Notes under the pieces: model-generated | Seen by the model: the letters and a program-made list of their open reading frames with translations, nothing else | The model's database searches: none | What the model was told of the DNA's origin: nothing | Program-made: the position numbers and the translations under genes | Shown: positions 4,290-11,991 of the stretch, piece after piece | How the letters are laid out: each line of letters begins with the position of its first letter | Numbering within the stretch: position 1 is the first letter of the stretch | Source of the DNA: Verrucomicrobiota bacterium | GTDB taxonomy: Bacteria > Verrucomicrobiota > Verrucomicrobiia > Verrucomicrobiales > DEV007 | Assembly (NCBI GenBank): GCA_024277195.1 | Contig: JAJRVS010000316.1 | Location: forward strand, 1-54,641 | Direction of reading: 5' to 3' | Length of the DNA stretch: 54,641 bases

Positions 4290-5567
4290 TCAGGGTTTGT
4301 TAGCGGTGTTTTCGTCACAGCAAGTAATGTCAGCTAGGACTTTTCCTTCCGCATGTTTTTTACTGCCTTCGGTGTAGCGAAAGGTTTGGAACTGGCCTTT
4401 GATGAGGACGGGGGTGGCTTGATCCAAGGGCAATACGGCTTTTTGATGGTGATTGTTTTCCAGCCAGGTGACGAGCAGGGCGGAGTTGAGATTGTTTATA
4501 TCCTTTGTATTAGTTTTTTGATTAGTCTTAATTTGTTGCCATTTGACCACGGCGCGGGCGCGATTGCGGTGCTGCAGGATCTGCAGGGTCTGATCTCCCA
4601 CTTTCAGCTCAGCTGGCAGGGAATCGATTTTGTGACTGCTGAATTGATTGTTTTGGTGATCCCAGATGAAAGCGGTGAGGTGACCGGTTTGATCGTCATT
4701 GGCACTGAGCAGTAGCCGGTTTTTATCATTGCCTGACATCTTGATCGGATCGCGGGCGGTGAGGCGGGATTGGCTGGCACTGTTTCCTTTCAAGCGGGTG
4801 GCCGGTAGCAGTGCGGGGTGGATGCCTTTGGTGAGTTCGGGGTGATCGAGGAAGCAGAGATGACGCTCGGTGGTGCCTTCGTCGGAAGCCAGGGTGACTT
4901 CGATGGCACGGTTGGCGAAGTCGCTGTCGTTGCTCTCTTTGATGTTACCGTTCTCTTCCAGTAAGGCGTGTTCGTAGCTGCGGATGTTTTTGATTGTCCA
5001 ACCGGGGAAGATTTCAGATCCTACTTTGGGTAGCGCATAAAAATGCCCTTGGTGTTCAAATTGAACCGTATCTTTGGAGGCCTTGAGCCATTGTCCGGGA
5101 GCTGAGGGCTGGCTGCCTGCGGGCAGCACACGAACTTGGACGTCGAGCTCTTCAAGCAGGCCGGCAGGGCCGTCCTCTTTGCTTTGGTAGATCCATTGTT
5201 GTTGTTTTGTTTTTTCGTCAGCAGGGGCATTTTTTGTCCAACTGATTTCGACCGCATGGGATTCCTTATTACTTTGATTATCGGTTTCCGGCATGGCCTT
5301 TGCCTGCGGCCAGTATTCGAGGATGCGTAACTCGGTATCGGCGAGCTTCAAATTTTGTCCGAGATGATCCGCTGTCACGCTGTCTGATACGGCGAGTCCT
5401 TTGTCATCATGAGTCAAGAGTTCGATTGTCACATCAATGGGATCATGACCTTCTTCTACCAGTGACGTTTTTTGCGTGCTTTTGCTGCAAGATAGAGAAA
5501 ACAGAATCAAGGGTAGGCATGACAGAAATAAACGGGTGGTAGCAGAGCAGTGGATTGGAGCATTCAT
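4290..5567 (-). CDS. Lipoprotein of unknown function with threefold internal repeat
   Basis: 425 residues with a lipoprotein signal (hydrophobic stretch then lipobox LFSLSC, Cys near residue 28). It is the last gene of the octaheme cytochrome operon, 11 bases after the preceding stop. By eye it contains three related modules. Each has a G-x-x-(L/W)-x-I core (TELRILEYW, GWTIKNIRSYE, QTLQILQHRN), an alanine (AKAM, ALLE, ARAV), a polar Asn/Lys-rich linker and a closing beta strand (HAVEISW, RAIEVTL, ALLVTWL). The modules faintly recall the extracytoplasmic part of ResB-type cytochrome c maturation proteins, but I would not assign that. Position suggests a periplasmic-face role linked to the cytochromes. 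Confidence 0.8.
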   Translation of the reverse strand: MNAPIHCSATTRLFLSCLPLILFSLSCSKSTQKTSLVEEGHDPIDVTIELLTHDDKGLAVSDSVTADHLGQNLKLADTELRILEYWPQAKAMPETDNQSNKESHAVEISWTKNAPADEKTKQQQWIYQSKEDGPAGLLEELDVQVRVLPAGSQPSAPGQWLKASKDTVQFEHQGHFYALPKVGSEIFPGWTIKNIRSYEHALLEENGNIKESNDSDFANRAIEVTLASDEGTTERHLCFLDHPELTKGIHPALLPATRLKGNSASQSRLTARDPIKMSGNDKNRLLLSANDDQTGHLTAFIWDHQNNQFSSHKIDSLPAELKVGDQTLQILQHRNRARAVVKWQQIKTNQKTNTKDINNLNSALLVTWLENNHHQKAVLPLDQATPVLIKGQFQTFRYTEGSKKHAEGKVLADITCCDENTANKP

Positions 5568-5578
5568 GGTGTGAGGCC

Positions 5579-6064
5579 TTATTTTAAAGAATCGGTAATT
5601 TGACAGAGTTGTTGATAGTAGTCTTCGGTTTCCATTCCCATCAGGGTGGCTCCGAATGCCTCGGCAGCATCGGATCCGGCGATGTCGCCGTAGTTGACAC
5701 AGACGAGGTGGTAAGCGACGAGCATTGGCAGCACGGCATCGTTGCCCTCGAAAGCCGGATGAACCGTCAGGACAAAACCACTGGCGGGATTGCCGCTTTC
5801 TACCGCTTGGATGAAAGCGAACTCGCCTTCCAGTAGGGGTTCACCAGCAAAAAACAGTCGCAGTGGGTAACGTACAAAACGGCGGTCTTCGAGCAGGGCG
5901 TAAAGCGACTCAAGAGGTAGTCCGGGTAATAGGCGGATGCCGTACTCCTGACGTGCCTCGTAGGCTTTACCCGCAGCATGCTCGACGAGGGAGCGTTTGC
6001 CGTCTTCCTCGGTCGGGCGGATGCGGGCAGGCATACGGTTGGGTTTAGCAGCAGCAGTGGGCAT
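5579..6064 (-). CDS. Hypothetical protein in the octaheme cytochrome operon
   Basis: 161 residues, no signal peptide, no heme or metal motif. The frame extends upstream, but that extension would overlap the octaheme gene in another frame and is basic low-quality sequence. The ATG at 6064, 13 bases after the octaheme stop, is therefore the likely start. The first 35 residues are basic and Pro-rich, followed by a compact mixed alpha/beta region with the stretches YPLRLFFAGEPLLEGEF and MLVAYHLVCVNYGDIAG. I do not recognise the family. Tight spacing on both sides places it in the same transcript as the cytochrome genes, so an accessory or assembly role is possible. Confidence 0.75.
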   Translation of the reverse strand: MPTAAAKPNRMPARIRPTEEDGKRSLVEHAAGKAYEARQEYGIRLLPGLPLESLYALLEDRRFVRYPLRLFFAGEPLLEGEFAFIQAVESGNPASGFVLTVHPAFEGNDAVLPMLVAYHLVCVNYGDIAGSDAAEAFGATLMGMETEDYYQQLCQITDSLK

Positions 6065-6077
6065 GGTTTTGTCAGGT

Positions 6078-7541
6078 CTATTTGTTGTAGCGCGCTTTGA
6101 ATTCCGCCGAGGCTTTTTCCCGGGCAGCTTTCTCTTCGGGATCCATGTCGCCGATGAACCAGCGGTGGTTTTCACTTTGGAGGGTTTTGTCGAGCACTGC
6201 CTGCAAGTTCTGGGCGGCTTTTTGTTTTTCTGGATCTTTATTGGCCATTCCTTTTTCGATCAGGTGCTCGAGTTCGGGGATGAACTTCACGTAGAAGTGC
6301 TGGGCGACTTCATAGGTGCCGTGCCAATGGGTGTAGTCGGGTCCCATCATCGATGCGCCGTGGCGTGCGCGACGACCTTCGTGATGCCAGATCTCAAACC
6401 AGATGAAGTCGAGTTTGTTGCCGAACTTGATGGGTTTCATCAGTGGTTTGGCGGCGGCATAGAGGGCGAGTCCCGGTTTGGCAAACTTCTCGTTGTAGAG
6501 ATCGATCAGCGAGTCGTATTGCACATACCAGTTTTTCACCCAATTTTCATTGTGGCAGTTTGAGCACACGTCCTGCATGTTGGCGCGCCGTTGGGTCCAT
6601 GGGACGTCTTTGCCGGGCAGTCCCATTTTGGCATCCGAGACTTCGGGTCTGACCGAAACGGCAGGCCGGTTGTTCCACGAAATGCGCATGCCGACGTCAT
6701 GGGTAACCGCTTGGTTTTTGGTCTGCGACATGTGACAAGTGGCACAGGTGGGGGCGGCTGAATAATCCTCGCCGACGATCCACTTGGGAGAGTCGAGATT
6801 CATTTTGTTGATATTGGCAAAAAAGGCGATGCCGTGTTTAGACTCTTCGTAGATTTCCTTTTGCGGATGGTCGGGACCCATGTGGCATTTGCCGCAAGTG
6901 TCCGGATGGCGTGCCTGGGCCGCTGAGAAGGTGTGGCGACTATGGCAAGCCGAGCAGGATCCTTCCGAGCCGTCAGGGTTGAGTCGGCCGATACCGGTAT
7001 TGGGCCAGGTGGCGGGATCGAGCAGCCCTTTGCCACCTTCGAGCACTTTGACTTCGGTGCCGTGACACTGCCAGCAACCGTTGACGGCGGCAGCAGAAAC
7101 TCCACCGGGGAAGGCTTTGGTTTTCATGCCTTTGCTTCCTTCGACGACTTCGGCGAGCACGTTGTCGAGTGATCCGAGGATGCGCCCTGCCTTGGAGTGA
7201 TGGGATCCTGCGAATTCCTTGACTTCCTGATCGTGACAGCGGGCACAATCCTTGGGCGTGACCAGCACGGCGATGAGTTCTTCGTAGTGAGGGTAAGCAT
7301 CTTTGTCGCCTTTCTCTGCGTGATGGCACTCGAAACAGCTTACCTTGGCACGGTAGTGTTTGCTGTCACCCCATTGCTCATAGAGAGCGGGATTGAGTTT
7401 CTTGTGACACTCGATGCATTTTTTGCTTTGCTCGCTGACTTTACTGAGTCCAAACGGACCGGCAAAAGTATTGTGAATCCCGAACAGCAAAACGAGAGCT
7501 GTGATCCACGGGATGAGTAGGGATGTTCGGTGTGTTTTCAT
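6078..7541 (-). CDS. Octaheme cytochrome c, hydroxylamine oxidoreductase (HAO) family, probably reductive
   Basis: 487 residues with an N-terminal Sec signal (about residues 8-27). Exactly eight CXXCH motifs sit at residues 42, 69, 99, 156, 196, 216, 266 and 326. The HAO-family blocks CGKCHMGPDHPQKEIYEESK (216-235), NEKFAKPG and HHEGRRARHGASMMGPDY (386-403) identify it as HAO family rather than tetrathionate reductase or NrfA. Classical HAO oxidises hydroxylamine and cross-links a tyrosine to its P460 heme. Here the corresponding segment reads GPDYTHWHG, with His where I recall Tyr in oxidative HAO. That would favour reduction of nitrite or hydroxylamine to ammonium, but it is inference from memory. 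Start at ATG 7541 has GAAAGGA upstream; longer in-frame starts lack a signal peptide. Genes for quinol oxidation lie directly upstream. Confidence 0.9.
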   Translation of the reverse strand: MKTHRTSLLIPWITALVLLFGIHNTFAGPFGLSKVSEQSKKCIECHKKLNPALYEQWGDSKHYRAKVSCFECHHAEKGDKDAYPHYEELIAVLVTPKDCARCHDQEVKEFAGSHHSKAGRILGSLDNVLAEVVEGSKGMKTKAFPGGVSAAAVNGCWQCHGTEVKVLEGGKGLLDPATWPNTGIGRLNPDGSEGSCSACHSRHTFSAAQARHPDTCGKCHMGPDHPQKEIYEESKHGIAFFANINKMNLDSPKWIVGEDYSAAPTCATCHMSQTKNQAVTHDVGMRISWNNRPAVSVRPEVSDAKMGLPGKDVPWTQRRANMQDVCSNCHNENWVKNWYVQYDSLIDLYNEKFAKPGLALYAAAKPLMKPIKFGNKLDFIWFEIWHHEGRRARHGASMMGPDYTHWHGTYEVAQHFYVKFIPELEHLIEKGMANKDPEKQKAAQNLQAVLDKTLQSENHRWFIGDMDPEEKAAREKASAEFKARYNK

Positions 7542-7554
7542 GTTAGTTTCCTTT

Positions 7555-8817
7555 CTATTGATAATTGATGGCTGTGAGATCTTCTTCTTTGGCAAAATCG
7601 AGGCGTCCTCCGTCAAAGGAATCGGCATCGACGGTGAGGCGCCCACTGAGCACGGGTACGGTGATGCGGACGAGGATGGTGTAGATGAGAAATCCGGTGG
7701 CCCAGATGCCGAGCGAGACCAGAGTTTCGTTCAGGGTGGGGGTGTATTCGACGATTTCGCCGAGCGGGGTGGGGATGAATCCTGGGATGATGAGACCCAT
7801 GCCCTTTTCGATCCAAATGCCGATGAAGAGCATGGAGCAAGCGACGTTGAGGACGCGCAGGCGACGACTGATGGGGAGCACCAGAACGATCAAAGCGACC
7901 ATATTGAGTATGAAAGAAGTGCGGATCCAGGGGACAAGTGCGGATTTGCCATCCAGACCGAGATAGAGATACTTGGCCGAGGCGACGTGCACGGAGTCGG
8001 TGTAAAATTCGGTGAACCATTCACTTCCAAGCAGGAACATGTTGATGAACATTGCCACGGTGACGATGCTGCGCAGGGTGAGCAGGGCCTGGCGTTCTAC
8101 TTTCCAGTGGGTGAAATGACGAATCATCTGCAGGGTAATGATGAGCAAAGCTGGTCCCGCTGCGAAGGCTGAAGCAAGGAATCGCGGGGCGATGACGGCG
8201 GAGTTCCAGAAAGGTCGTGCGCCCAGACCGGAGTAGAGGAAGGCGGTGACGGTGTGGATGCTGATCGCCCAGGCAATGGCGATGAAAACAAAAGGCACGA
8301 CGAAATTTTTGTGCGGTTTGCGTTTGTTATAAGCACAATAAATGAGGTAGCCCGGTATGTGTAGGTTGAGCAATAAATAGCCGTTGAGCGCAATCACGTC
8401 CCAAGTCAGGATCGATACGGGGAAATGGAAGCGCAACATCATGTGATGCATTTGGTCGGGACGGCCGAGATCGACGACGATGAAAAGCAGGCACATGATG
8501 ATGGCTGAAACGGCCAACAGTTCGCCGAAGATGACCAAGTGATGCAGCTCTTCGCGTTTGTAGATGTAAACGGGAATGACCAGCATCACCGCCGAGGCAG
8601 CGACGCCGACGAGAAAGGTGAAGTTGGCGATGTAGACTCCCCACGAAACTTGATCAGTCATGCCGGTGGTGCCTAGGCCGTAAACATACTGACGGCAGTA
8701 GGCGTTGAGGCCGACCAGGGCAATGGTGAACAGAAAGCCTAGCCACAGGTGGTATTTCCATCCGCCGACAAAGCTGCGTTTAAAACAGCGATAGAGAAAT
8801 TTGAGGTAGGCCTTCAT
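7555..8817 (-). CDS. NrfD/PsrC-family membrane quinol oxidoreductase subunit
   Basis: 420 residues with about eight to ten hydrophobic transmembrane segments, as in NrfD, PsrC and ActC proteins, which bind (mena)quinol and pass electrons to a four-cluster FeS partner. Family features include WGVYIANFTFLVGVAAS near the N terminus, the conserved acidic VVDLGRPDQ region after the fourth helix, and the WTEFY-like segment around SEWFTEFYTDS. The ATG overlaps the TGA of the FeS gene as ATGA, a sign of translational coupling, and 13 bases separate it from the octaheme gene downstream. It is the predicted entry point for quinol electrons into this complex. Confidence 0.93.
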   Translation of the reverse strand: MKAYLKFLYRCFKRSFVGGWKYHLWLGFLFTIALVGLNAYCRQYVYGLGTTGMTDQVSWGVYIANFTFLVGVAASAVMLVIPVYIYKREELHHLVIFGELLAVSAIIMCLLFIVVDLGRPDQMHHMMLRFHFPVSILTWDVIALNGYLLLNLHIPGYLIYCAYNKRKPHKNFVVPFVFIAIAWAISIHTVTAFLYSGLGARPFWNSAVIAPRFLASAFAAGPALLIITLQMIRHFTHWKVERQALLTLRSIVTVAMFINMFLLGSEWFTEFYTDSVHVASAKYLYLGLDGKSALVPWIRTSFILNMVALIVLVLPISRRLRVLNVACSMLFIGIWIEKGMGLIIPGFIPTPLGEIVEYTPTLNETLVSLGIWATGFLIYTILVRITVPVLSGRLTVDADSFDGGRLDFAKEEDLTAINYQ

Positions 8818-9875
8818 GAGGTTTGGGAAATTTTGTCAGCCATGGCTTCATCGGAGCCGGGGTAACGTTCGTCGAAGTAATAAAAAAACCGAGGCAGGGT
8901 GCCGACTTCTTCTTTGAGCACAAAAACGCGGTTGGTTTTGAGAATTTGAGAAACCTCGCTGTTGGGGTCGAGCACGTTGCCGAATTTGCGTGCGCCGGTG
9001 GGACAGACTTCGAGACAGGCAGGCATTTTACCTTCGCGTGTGAGGTGCAGGCAGAAGGTGCATTTTTCCACCACTCCCTTGGGTCGTGGACGGTTGGAGA
9101 GGTAGGCCATGTTGGGATTGAGATCCTTTTTTGGCAGCTTGGGTTTGGTGAAATTAAAACGCCGGGCCCAGTAGGGACAAGCGGCTTCGCAATAGCGGCA
9201 ACCGATGCACCAGTCGTAGTCGATGACGGTGATGCCGTCGGCTTCCTGCCAAGTGGCTTCTACCGGGCAGACTTTGACACAGGGAGGTTGGGCGCATTGA
9301 TGGCATTGCACCGGCATGTAGAAGTGATCGTTGTCAGGAACCTTGGGGCGATCATAGTGATGGTTGCCTTTTTCGATATTGGTGGTGCCGCGTGGCATTT
9401 CGAGCACGCGGATGTATTGGATCTCGGGCGAGCGACTCTGGTTGTTTTCTGCCACGCAGGCGTGCACACATTTGCGACAACCAATGCAGCGGGTCAGGTT
9501 GAGCGCATAGACAAACTCTACTCCGTCCATTGGTTTGATGTCCCGGATATCGGGGCGTTGGTCAAAGCGTTTTTCGACTTCGCCGGAGATGCGGGTGAGT
9601 GCTTTTTGCATCTCCTCTGCGTCCATTTCCTTGTAGTGTTTCTGGAGGAATTTTTCGACGGTGGGGAGGTCTTCGCTTTCCAATTCCATCAGAGGTTTGA
9701 GCGCAGCCATGGCTGCGGCAAGACCGCCAGCGGCGACCGCCGAGGTGCGCAAAAAGCTGCGCCGGGTGGGAGCGGAACCGCTACCACCACCTCCACAAGA
9801 GCCTCCCGCACACCCTCCCTGCGGAGACGATGTCTGTTTGTCCTGATCGGAGTGCTGTTTATTTTCCGGGTTCAT
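8814..9875 (-). CDS. NrfC-like 4x[4Fe-4S] ferredoxin subunit with Tat signal
   Basis: 353 residues. Four cysteine groups are visible in order: CIGCRKCVHAC, CHQCAQPPCVKVCP, CIGCRYCEAACP and CTFCLHLTREGKMPACLEVCP. This is the four-cluster pattern of NrfC, PsrB, DmsB and HybA. A twin-arginine motif TRRSFLRT (residues 37-44) and a following hydrophobic stretch indicate Tat export. An unusual Cys/Gly-rich stretch (GGCAGGSCGGGGSG) precedes the signal. The gene overlaps the tetraheme gene by 17 bases and the NrfD gene by 4, so the three are almost certainly co-translated. Role: electron wire between NrfD and the multiheme cytochromes. Confidence 0.93.
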   Translation of the reverse strand: MNPENKQHSDQDKQTSSPQGGCAGGSCGGGGSGSAPTRRSFLRTSAVAAGGLAAAMAALKPLMELESEDLPTVEKFLQKHYKEMDAEEMQKALTRISGEVEKRFDQRPDIRDIKPMDGVEFVYALNLTRCIGCRKCVHACVAENNQSRSPEIQYIRVLEMPRGTTNIEKGNHHYDRPKVPDNDHFYMPVQCHQCAQPPCVKVCPVEATWQEADGITVIDYDWCIGCRYCEAACPYWARRFNFTKPKLPKKDLNPNMAYLSNRPRPKGVVEKCTFCLHLTREGKMPACLEVCPTGARKFGNVLDPNSEVSQILKTNRVFVLKEEVGTLPRFFYYFDERYPGSDEAMADKISQTS

Positions 9876-10593
9876 TTTTCGACGAATCAGAAGGGTGCGG
9901 GTCTTGGTGTTTGGGTGTGTTTAGGAAAAGTAGTGGGTTTTTGTTGTGGCTCTGATGGAGGGAGGAAGTGTCGTTTTCCTGATCACCCATGCGCAGGGTA
10001 TGAGGGCCGGGCAGGGGTGGGATCGGATCAAAGCGCGGGTGATGCGGGTCGTGACACTCAGTGCAGCTGAGTTTTTTTGACTGACCCATTTTGGCATTCC
10101 AGAAACCGAGGGTTTTGCCATGGATGCCTCGTTGCCACTGTCGATAGAGCGGGCCGTGGCACTGGGCGCAGAGCTGGGAGGCCTGCGCGTAGTCGAAAGT
10201 CTTGTTATCGAGGGTAGCCAATTTATTGCGGTCCTTGGCATCGTGGCAATTCACGCAGCGGGTATTGATGCCGTGTTGCAGTTTGATATTGGCGTGTTGG
10301 TGAAGATCGGTGGAGCGAGGTTGGGAATCGATGATGATGTGGCAGTCCATGCAGGTGCGTTCGAAGCCGTTGACCATGGATTTGGGAGGATCGGAGAGCG
10401 GAGTGAAGCGTGGGGCGGGATTGATATCCGCAGCGCTGATGGTGATCGGATCCGGAATAGGGATGCTGCTTCCTGTTGGTGAAAAGAGGAAGCCCACTGC
10501 GGTGGCAAAAAAAACCAAAGTGAGCCCCCAGATCACCGAGCGATCCAGTGATTTGGTAGTTTGATCTTTGTTTTTTCGTGGGAATTCATTCAT
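9859..10593 (-). CDS. Tetraheme cytochrome c, NrfB-like electron carrier
   Basis: 244 residues with one N-terminal membrane helix (VIWGLTLVFFATAVGFLF, about residues 20-37) that could be an uncleaved anchor. It has four CXXCH motifs: CMDCH, CVNCH, CAQCH and CTECH. Several extra histidines (HQHANIKLQHG, HGKTLGF) could be distal heme ligands. It is the first gene of the operon and by position replaces NrfB of nrfABCD: it should carry electrons from the FeS subunit to the octaheme enzyme. The C terminus is a polar His/Pro/Asn-rich tail without hemes. It could also be classed as a doubled-CXXCH or NapC/NirT-like protein, but family membership is not clear from motifs alone. Confidence 0.85.
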   Translation of the reverse strand: MNEFPRKNKDQTTKSLDRSVIWGLTLVFFATAVGFLFSPTGSSIPIPDPITISAADINPAPRFTPLSDPPKSMVNGFERTCMDCHIIIDSQPRSTDLHQHANIKLQHGINTRCVNCHDAKDRNKLATLDNKTFDYAQASQLCAQCHGPLYRQWQRGIHGKTLGFWNAKMGQSKKLSCTECHDPHHPRFDPIPPLPGPHTLRMGDQENDTSSLHQSHNKNPLLFLNTPKHQDPHPSDSSKNEPGK

Positions 10594-10823: not shown

Positions 10824-10851
10824 TTGTGTGTGGTGGGTGTTGTTGTATTAT
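10824..10851 (+). promoter_or_regulatory. Possible sigma70-type promoter of the RAYT transposase
   Basis: TTGTGT (10824-10829) and TATTAT (10846-10851) with a 16-base spacer, 55 bases before the ATG. Reasonable match to bacterial housekeeping promoters but unproven. Confidence 0.35.
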
Positions 10852-10905
10852 GGGGGGCGAGGGAATTATTCGGGGGAGTCGAAGCACTTAGGAAAGGGAT
10901 CAATT

Positions 10906-11991
10906 ATGAGGAAAATACGGGAATTTTTATTGGGGCCGGAGGGGCAGGCGAATTATTATCATGTGGTGAGCCGGACGACGGGGCGGGATGTTTTGTTTGA
11001 GGATGATGAGAAGGAAACTTTTCGGATTTTGATGCTCAAACAATTGAAATTCAGTGGGCTGCGGGCACTGGCATGGTGTTTTATGGGCAATCATTTTCAT
11101 TTGCTGTTGGAGGTGCCGGACAGGGAGTTGGCGACAGAGGGGTGGAAGGATGAGGATTATATTAAGCGTTTGGAGGTGTTTAAGAATGAGTGGTCGAGTA
11201 AGTTGGTGTTGGATGAGGTGGAGATGTTTAGGGGAAATGGGGCGACGGAAAAGGTGAGCGAGATTGCGGAATCGGTGAAGGTGCGCTTGTTTGATCTTTC
11301 GATGTTTATGAAGGAGTTGAAGCTGAAAATGACATTGGCTTACAACCGGAAACACGGCAGGGTGGGGACTTTGTGGGAGGGGCCGTTCAAGAGCTTATTG
11401 TTACAGGGGGCGGGTGAGGGTGAAAGTAGTGATGCTCTGCGGATGGTGGCGGCATATATAGACCTGAATCCGATTCGCGCGGGGCTGGCGCAGGAGCCGG
11501 AGGGATACCGTTGGTGTTCGTATGCGGCGGCGGTGGCCGGGGTGCGTGGGGCACGTCAGGGCCTGTGTTATGCGGTGACGGGGCGTAGTCGGGTGGCGTG
11601 GAAAAAGGTGGAGCAGGAGTATAGGTGTTTGCTGTATACTAAAGGGCAAACGGTGAAGGCGGGTCAAAACCTCCGTCGCCAAGGCTATGGCGGTCAAGCG
11701 GTGGGCGGTTATGATAAAGGTAGGGGAGGGTTTAGTCGGGCGGAGATCAAAGAGGTGTTGGAATCAGGGGGGAGATTGTCGGTGGCGGAGGCATTGAGAT
11801 GTAGGGTGAGGTATTTCACTGATGGGTCGGTGTTGGGGAGTCAGCGTTATGTGGATGATTTTTTTGAGAGCAAGAGGGAGTGCTTTGGCGCGCGGCGTAA
11901 GGATGGGGGAAGGCGGATGCGTGGAGCGCAGTGGGGGGAACTGCGGGTATTGCGGGATTTGAAGATGGATGTGGTGTGCAAAGGGGGCTAA
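10906..11991 (+). CDS. REP-associated tyrosine transposase (RAYT), Y1/HUH family
   Basis: 361 residues from the ATG at 10906, which has GGAAAGGG seven bases upstream; the longer TTG-type frame start is unlikely. Domain order is typical of TnpA_REP (IS200-like) proteins. It starts with NYYHVVSRTTGRDVLF, then the metal-binding block WCFMGNHFHLLLEV (HFH in place of the usual HVH). Next come a linker and a family segment LAYNRKHGRVGTLWEGPFKS, and the catalytic tyrosine region MVAAYIDLNPIRAG. RAYTs act on dispersed palindromic repeats rather than on themselves. The gene has no recognisable flanking inverted repeats, consistent with a domesticated RAYT. The C-terminal third is longer than in most members and contains a copy of a dispersed repeat (11670-11698) read in frame. 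Confidence 0.88.
   Translation: MRKIREFLLGPEGQANYYHVVSRTTGRDVLFEDDEKETFRILMLKQLKFSGLRALAWCFMGNHFHLLLEVPDRELATEGWKDEDYIKRLEVFKNEWSSKLVLDEVEMFRGNGATEKVSEIAESVKVRLFDLSMFMKELKLKMTLAYNRKHGRVGTLWEGPFKSLLLQGAGEGESSDALRMVAAYIDLNPIRAGLAQEPEGYRWCSYAAAVAGVRGARQGLCYAVTGRSRVAWKKVEQEYRCLLYTKGQTVKAGQNLRRQGYGGQAVGGYDKGRGGFSRAEIKEVLESGGRLSVAEALRCRVRYFTDGSVLGSQRYVDDFFESKRECFGARRKDGGRRMRGAQWGELRVLRDLKMDVVCKGG
11670..11698 (+). repeat. Dispersed 29-base repeat inside the RAYT gene
   Basis: The segment translates in frame as part of NLRRQGYGGQA and has a CGCCA...TGGCG stem. It matches 33989-34017 at 24 of 29 positions. It sits in the non-conserved C-terminal linker, suggesting an in-frame insertion of a mobile repeat. 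Confidence 0.7.

Follow-up and report, generated by a model that had tools for sequence, protein, structure and literature searches.

Introduction

The closest described counterparts of the locus considered here, a six-gene operon in a 54,641-nucleotide stretch of DNA from a Verrucomicrobiota bacterium (assembly GCA_024277195.1, contig JAJRVS010000316.1; hereafter the window), are gene clusters in which an octaheme cytochrome c of the HAO family has been proposed to reduce nitrite. In Thermosulfurimonas and Dissulfuribacter, a Hao homologue, an NrfD-family protein, a 4Fe-4S protein and a membrane cytochrome (TDIS_0606-0609 and DBT_2326-2329) are encoded in a cluster with napMADGH, no NrfA is present, and nitrite reduction was proposed (PMC5276818). 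These four gene types and their order are those of P0004 to P0001 in the window, although the description is a single paragraph with no mention of P0005, and its comparison with the window is by description only. In Caldithrix, nitrite reduction has been assigned to epsilon-Hao, encoded beside nap, where no NrfAH was found and the tyrosine that forms the heme cross-link of HAO is missing (PMC5317091). The epsilon-Hao proteins of Caldithrix, Nautilia and Deferribacter (PMC5317091; PMC3701875; PMC6896113) resemble P0004 in being HAO-family octaheme cytochromes proposed to reduce nitrite, in lacking the cross-link tyrosine (as stated for Caldithrix) and in lying beside Nap in Caldithrix and Deferribacter, but their electron donors are different or have been left unresolved. 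The orange octaheme cytochrome of Guaymas Beggiatoaceae, BOGUAY_0691, has napAB upstream and homologues in Thiomargarita and SUP05, and reduces nitrite in vitro (PMC6449678). Relatives of these homologues were recovered here, including a Thiomargarita protein (L082) that is 62% identical to P0004 and whose C-terminus, RYGGKTDK, resembles the end of BOGUAY_0691 (YGEQTDR) as encoded by the published reverse primer. Also on record is MccA with MccCD, in which the octaheme subunit is a sulfite reductase and its partner is of the NrfD type (PMC8076601).

On balance, if by a narrow judgement, we read the operon of the window as a quinol-driven periplasmic nitrite reductase in which a DsrJOP-like module would feed an octaheme cytochrome of the epsilon-Hao type, with ammonium as the likeliest product. 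The operon is real, conserved and of a known general kind. A preliminary description of this DNA had supposed that the pairing of such an enzyme with its membrane partners might be undescribed or specific to Verrucomicrobia. Because the same four gene types were published in 2017 (PMC5276818) and MccACD is also in print (PMC8076601), the pairing is not undescribed, and the claim of novelty for it does not stand; the core is moreover common in Planctomycetota, Bdellovibrionota, Thermodesulfobacteriota and others. The literature searched does not set out how it is spread across many phyla, the DsrJOP-like identity of the partner or the conserved P0005. Papers on epsilon-Hao ammonifiers without NrfA leave the electron donor open, and since the quinol module is here both defined and conserved, the question of the donor can be put to a concrete biochemical test.

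The operon and its octaheme cytochrome

Six open reading frames occupy positions 4290-10593 of the minus strand, each overlapping the next or lying 11-13 bases from it, exactly where the preliminary description had placed them. In order of transcription they are:

9859..10593, minus strand: P0001, membrane-anchored periplasmic tetraheme cytochrome c (244 aa; from its CxxCH count and N-terminal helix)
8814..9875, minus strand: P0002, Tat-exported 4x[4Fe-4S] electron-transfer protein, DsrO-like by NCBIfam (17-base overlap with P0001)
7555..8817, minus strand: P0003, NrfD-superfamily integral membrane quinol-binding subunit, DsrP-like by NCBIfam (4-base overlap with P0002)
6078..7541, minus strand: P0004, octaheme cytochrome c with HAO fold, predicted nitrite (N-oxide) reductase (from its AlphaFold2 model and CxxCH motifs; 13-base gap)
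5579..6064, minus strand: P0005, conserved protein with zincin-like fold and no signal peptide (161 aa from the ATG at 6064; 13-base gap)
4290..5567, minus strand: P0006, secreted or lipoprotein-like, lineage-restricted (425 aa, no family match; 11-base gap)

Dozens of loci, in no fewer than seven phyla, show the core of this arrangement, so the gene arrangement is beyond chance, and the conserved synteny that had been predicted is borne out.

P0004 has eight CxxCH motifs and a Sec-type signal, and matches a Pfam multi-haem profile. The solved structures nearest to it in a PDB sequence search were 4qo5, the IhOCC of Ignicoccus hospitalis, and then HAO. Its AlphaFold2 model (mean predicted local distance difference test score, pLDDT, 87.1) aligned with IhOCC at Z 27.3 over 389 residues and with HAO, HDH and HAOr at Z 18.6-20.5, against a Z of only about 9 with NrfA and ONR. 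Asp224 and His225 of P0004, near-invariant in its relatives, align with D267 and H268 of Nitrosomonas europaea HAO, the catalytic Asp/His of that enzyme. If the octaheme HAO family is taken to comprise proteins with eight c-type hemes on an HAO fold and the catalytic Asp/His after heme motif 6, P0004 is a member of it by its modelled fold, in agreement with the preliminary description. The sequence holds neither CXXCK, the active-site motif of TvNiR/ONR, nor a CX15CH heme site; CX15CH is the active-site heme motif that marks the MccA octaheme subunit. Because of the fold scores and these missing motifs, P0004 is best regarded as an HAO-family protein and not as an NrfA or a TvNiR. Three assignments were rejected on the same evidence: the catalytic subunit of NrfABCD, in which NrfA is pentaheme while P0004 is octaheme with an HAO fold; a TvNiR/ONR enzyme, given the lack of CXXCK and a Z of about 9 as against 27 to IhOCC; and an MccACD-type sulfite reductase subunit, given the lack of CX15CH. 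Shewanella OTR did not appear in the sequence or fold matches listed, an absence that alone excludes no relation. IhOCC, for its part, is archaeal, shares 33% identity with P0004 and is of unsettled function (PMC4429474).

Oxidative HAO carries a tyrosine-cross-linked heme (P460), and the preliminary description held that P0004 has a histidine in place of that tyrosine. An alignment was made of 86 relatives, the window included, together with Scalindua controls; Tyr467 of HAO (4fas chain), the Tyr of GGWTYTEGW, was placed by aligning Scalindua HAO to the N. europaea chain. The Tyr467 column holds Trp in all 85 relatives with a residue there, W406 in the case of P0004. The tyrosine is indeed absent, but the residue aligned with it is Trp406, and the histidines that had been singled out, H405 (which is variable) and H407, flank it. 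Two HAO-type Scalindua controls (L116 and L117) have Tyr in this column, and an HAOr-like Scalindua protein (L113) has Trp as well. In the alignment, Arg292 of P0004 stands opposite the active-site Tyr334 of HAO. The conclusion stands, as far as the alignment speaks, that heme 4 of P0004 would be without a tyrosine cross-link, and with W406 at this position P0004 was rejected as an oxidative, P460-type HAO. The invariant tryptophan offers a clean target for mutagenesis. As an HAO-family octaheme protein without the cross-link tyrosine, from a family with a nap neighbourhood, P0004 appears to fit the reductive epsilon-Hao/orange-protein group at family level, the proteins compared being L082 of Thiomargarita and L067 of Calditrichota.

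Two longer HAO relatives were also seen (L017:5980-8136 and L018:7638-9785; 718 and 715 aa with nine CxxCH each), in genomes of 2.2-2.3 Mb from the same class. The L017 protein keeps the Tyr in a HANPGGFTYS context, like N. europaea HAO.

The membrane module

P0001 has four CxxCH motifs (at 81, 113, 142 and 177) behind one N-terminal hydrophobic helix (about 20-38); it matches Cytochrome_C7 in Pfam, is weakly NrfB-like in NCBIfam, and its place in the operon corresponds to that of DsrJ or NrfB. In P0002 a twin-arginine signal (TRRSFLRT) and 16 cysteines in four 4-Cys motifs can be read from the sequence. The best NCBIfam match of P0002 was DsrO with 175.4 bits, under the cut-off of 200, with NrfC at 107.5 bits (cut-off 377.6), and P0003 scored 423.8 bits as DsrP, over the cut-off of 350, with 28.9 bits as NrfD (cut-off 347.6). 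For comparison, in a Desulfobacteraceae genome with both kinds of protein, the genuine DsrP of a dsrJ-dsrO-dsrP run scored 499.1 bits versus 402 for the octaheme-linked copy. P0003 is 45% identical to this genuine DsrP (L145), and the conserved polar residues are Y62, D116, S135, D140, R201, R212, S216, E266, H277 and K338. These stand at near-constant offsets (9 to 12, the offsets alone having been compared) from the Desulfovibrio vulgaris DsrP residues that have been listed as candidate residues for binding quinone and for ion half-channels (PMC8076601).

The hidden Markov model (HMM) scores rule out NrfC/NrfD homology for P0002 and P0003. What had been described as a match to the order of nrfBCD holds as an analogous layout of tetraheme cytochrome, 4x[4Fe-4S] protein and multi-helix protein, but fails as homology, the partners being DsrO/DsrP-like. 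P0003 belongs to the NrfD superfamily, within which the HMM scores make it DsrP-like and not NrfD. From these matches the module seems best called DsrJOP-like, with four hemes in the cytochrome rather than three. Like the DsrJOP part of DsrMKJOP, it has DsrO- and DsrP-like subunits together with a multiheme cytochrome anchored in the membrane, and the order is the same, but it differs in that P0001 has four hemes where DsrJ is triheme, and in that the window operon contains an octaheme enzyme and no DsrMK. No dsrA match was found in the window's genome.

Distribution and genomic context

A total of 84,980 species genomes were scanned, and the best 80 loci were kept for neighbourhood counts and a tblastn neighbourhood map, with neighbours counted within a limited flank of each locus. 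The DsrOP-like pair lay within about 2 kb of the octaheme gene in 44 of the 80 loci, and in 41 the tetraheme gene was there as well. All ten Verrucomicrobiota loci had the pair and nine had the full P0001-P0003 core; for Planctomycetota the figures were 19 and 17 of 24 loci. The pair was also present in Bdellovibrionota, Thermodesulfobacteriota, Myxococcota/Delta, one acidobacterium, one cloacimonad (in divergent orientation) and one Scalindua. With the core in at least seven phyla, the operon is not Verrucomicrobia-specific. In contrast, the pair was found within the flank in none of the 15 Pseudomonadota loci, which in this respect differ, as relatives of BOGUAY_0691, from the window, and in none of the seven Nitrospirota loci. 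Three more distant relatives (L014-L016) have an NrfH/NapC-type tetraheme protein in place of the DsrOP-like pair, and plasmids of Desulfosarcina ovata and Desulfobaculum bizertense (L143 and L144) carry a NapC/NirT and octaheme pair, which on the Desulfosarcina plasmid adjoins norR, an NO (nitric oxide) reductase and a hemerythrin-domain gene. Because some relatives have an NrfH/NapC-type partner instead of a DsrOP-like one, the octaheme enzyme would seem to work with more than one donor.

The tree places the window sequence and L019 inside a mainly planctomycetal group, apart from most Verrucomicrobiota, with SH-aLRT values of 84-95 on the branches that join them to it. As the two group with planctomycetal sequences, horizontal transfer is suggested with moderate strength. 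A few observations on individual loci may be recorded here. Scalindua encodes a second octaheme protein of the P0004 group (L110:1294-2955, 59% over the best segment), its other one (L061) being accompanied by the DsrOP-like module. Regulator-like genes stand, by eye, before or after the octaheme gene in L053 and L081 (Crp/Fnr-type) and in L058 (TetR-type). The label Epsilonproteobacteria of L077 (QNFX01000012.1) is doubtful, as its phylum search gave the Bdellovibrionales genomes of L058 and L062.

A napA gene lay within about 9 kb of the octaheme gene in 20 of the 80 loci where 0.3-1 would be expected, although this expectation takes no account of relatedness and the loci include three near-duplicates from Sedimenticola. 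With napA as the recurrent neighbour, the reductive, quinol-linked role that had been proposed gains support. When 50 carrier genomes were tested, NapA (E up to 1e-60) was found in 24 and NrfA in eight. Among the 24 napA-bearing genomes, NrfA was present in four, NirS in two and NirK, over the cut-off, in two, and all three were undetected in 16; these are mostly metagenome-assembled genomes in which absences are soft, and NirBD was not searched. Many Planctomycetota, Verrucomicrobiota and other uncultured bacteria carry Nap while NrfA, NirK and NirS went undetected in them, so that an nrfA-based survey would overlook these potential ammonifiers. In one locus (L014:8472-16684, G270:C27) the octaheme gene and that for an NrfH-type tetraheme protein share a strand with napA-like, napG-like and ammonium transporter genes, possibly as a nitrate-to-ammonium operon without NrfA.

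No nap gene adjoins the operon of the window itself. In the same genome, contig C289 carries a napA-like gene with two napG-like genes after it, and full-length NrfA was not found, only partial matches of 25 and 23 bits, the better one in an 809-aa protein with eight CxxCH. The napA-like and napG-like genes are preceded by a four-CxxCH cytochrome gene with CcoP-like similarity (L123:2301-6984, G000:C289).

Proposed function and alternatives

We infer the direction of the reaction, its substrate and product and the order of electron transfer as follows. The DsrP-like P0003 would oxidise quinol in the membrane and pass electrons to P0002, the DsrO-like 4x[4Fe-4S] protein, from which they would reach the tetraheme P0001 and then P0004. 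The reduction of nitrite, most likely a six-electron one to ammonium, would take place there at heme 4 (motif C156-C159-H160), putatively free of the cross-link, where Asp224 and His225 occupy the positions of the HAO catalytic pair. In many hosts P0004 may act after the periplasmic nitrate reductase (Nap), in the place of NrfA, and P0005 would probably be an accessory or maturation protein. We consider it probable that the operon uses electrons from quinol to reduce nitrite or a different N-oxide; that ammonium is the product is a closer call, on which we lean slightly in favour.

Several points weigh against quinol-driven nitrite reduction to ammonium. To our knowledge, none of the enzymes with this DsrJOP-like partner module has a known activity. 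The napA-like gene of the window's genome is below the NapA cut-off and on another contig than the operon, and NirK is over its cut-off in the same genome (contig C372). Nitrite reduction by BOGUAY_0691 is slow, at 0.003-0.3 µmol/min/mg, in its native form it could oxidise hydroxylamine and hydrazine as well, and Candidatus Thioglobus autotrophicus has a homologue but shows no growth on nitrite (PMC6449678). Deferribacter desulfuricans goes no further than nitrite although it has nap-hao (PMC6896113), and the product of the related Kuenenia HAOr is NO instead of ammonium (PMC12485887).

This last enzyme, the anammox HAOr (Kustc0458), provides the model for an alternative in which P0004 reduces nitrite only as far as NO and feeds an NO reductase. 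HAOr is likewise without the cross-link (PMC12485887) and has the same fold as P0004 (Z 19.2), and the relative on the sulfate-reducer plasmid adjoins norR and NO reductase. We nevertheless think it unlikely, as the tree sets P0004 well apart from the HAOr-like Scalindua proteins, L014 has a neighbourhood typical of dissimilatory nitrate reduction to ammonium, with Amt, and the window's genome already has NirK. The same plasmid-borne relative, with its norR, NO reductase and hemerythrin-domain neighbours, could instead speak for detoxification of hydroxylamine or NO rather than respiration, and neither the SUP05 nor the D. desulfuricans carriers respire nitrite (PMC6449678; PMC6896113). Against this, a dedicated quinol-oxidising module is conserved, the recurrent neighbour is napA and not a set of stress genes, and two thirds of the napA-bearing genomes (16/24) are without another periplasmic nitrite reductase among those tested; we hold detoxification to be decidedly unlikely.

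Sulfur chemistry, with sulfite, thiosulfate or tetrathionate as substrate, is brought to mind by the DsrO/DsrP-like partner subunits, by the octaheme sulfite reductase MccA with its NrfD-type partner (PMC8076601) and by the fact that such a role was raised for TDIS_0606-0609 (PMC5276818). It is improbable, however, for an enzyme whose fold is nearest to IhOCC/HAO, which lacks CX15CH, whose relatives have nap genes as neighbours and whose host genome yielded no dsrA; a sulfite or tetrathionate role is disfavoured. The reverse direction, in which hydroxylamine or hydrazine is oxidised and the electrons enter the quinone pool, draws on the in vitro oxidation of both compounds by the native orange Beggiatoa protein (PMC6449678), but the cross-link tyrosine is missing from every one of the 85 relatives and the napA neighbours imply a nitrate-reducing context, and we regard it as very improbable.

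A bolder form of the nitrite ammonification reading is that the operon represents a widespread, horizontally spread and energy-conserving system, in which the DsrP-type subunit couples quinol oxidation to ion translocation as it supplies the octaheme reductase with electrons, and P0005 is a dedicated maturation factor of a new family. Ion translocation is proposed because the conserved polar residues of P0003 match those put forward for ion half-channels, and we consider the whole of it doubtful, though conceivable.

Accessory and neighbouring genes

P0005 has no match in Pfam or NCBIfam. Homologues occur at 27 loci, where they come immediately behind the octaheme gene or behind napA-napB (L024, L029 and L086); an alignment of 27 sequences has nine invariant columns, and several homologues end in Cys-rich tails. 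The AlphaFold2 model (pLDDT 93.1) aligned in VIA-align with IrrE/PprI and abylysin at Z 8.1-8.4, a level that can reflect a common arrangement, and a Foldseek search with it returned nothing significant. HExxH is absent from P0005 and all of its homologues, and with no significant Foldseek match an active metalloprotease is not supported. P0005 is a real conserved family, modelled with a zincin-like fold without HExxH, and an accessory or maturation/assembly role is our guess. Of the two conserved unknowns announced for the end of the operon, P0005 has proved widely conserved, whereas P0006 occurs only in near relatives: L019 holds a copy (65% identical) and L031 a weak 29% partial match. P0006 was consequently rejected as a conserved subunit. 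It has no family match in Pfam or NCBIfam, and its earlier designation as a lipoprotein is only probable, the lipobox being non-canonical.

Directly upstream of the operon and divergent from it, the plus-strand gene at 10828-11991 of the window resembles, by eye, a REP-associated (IS200-type) transposase.

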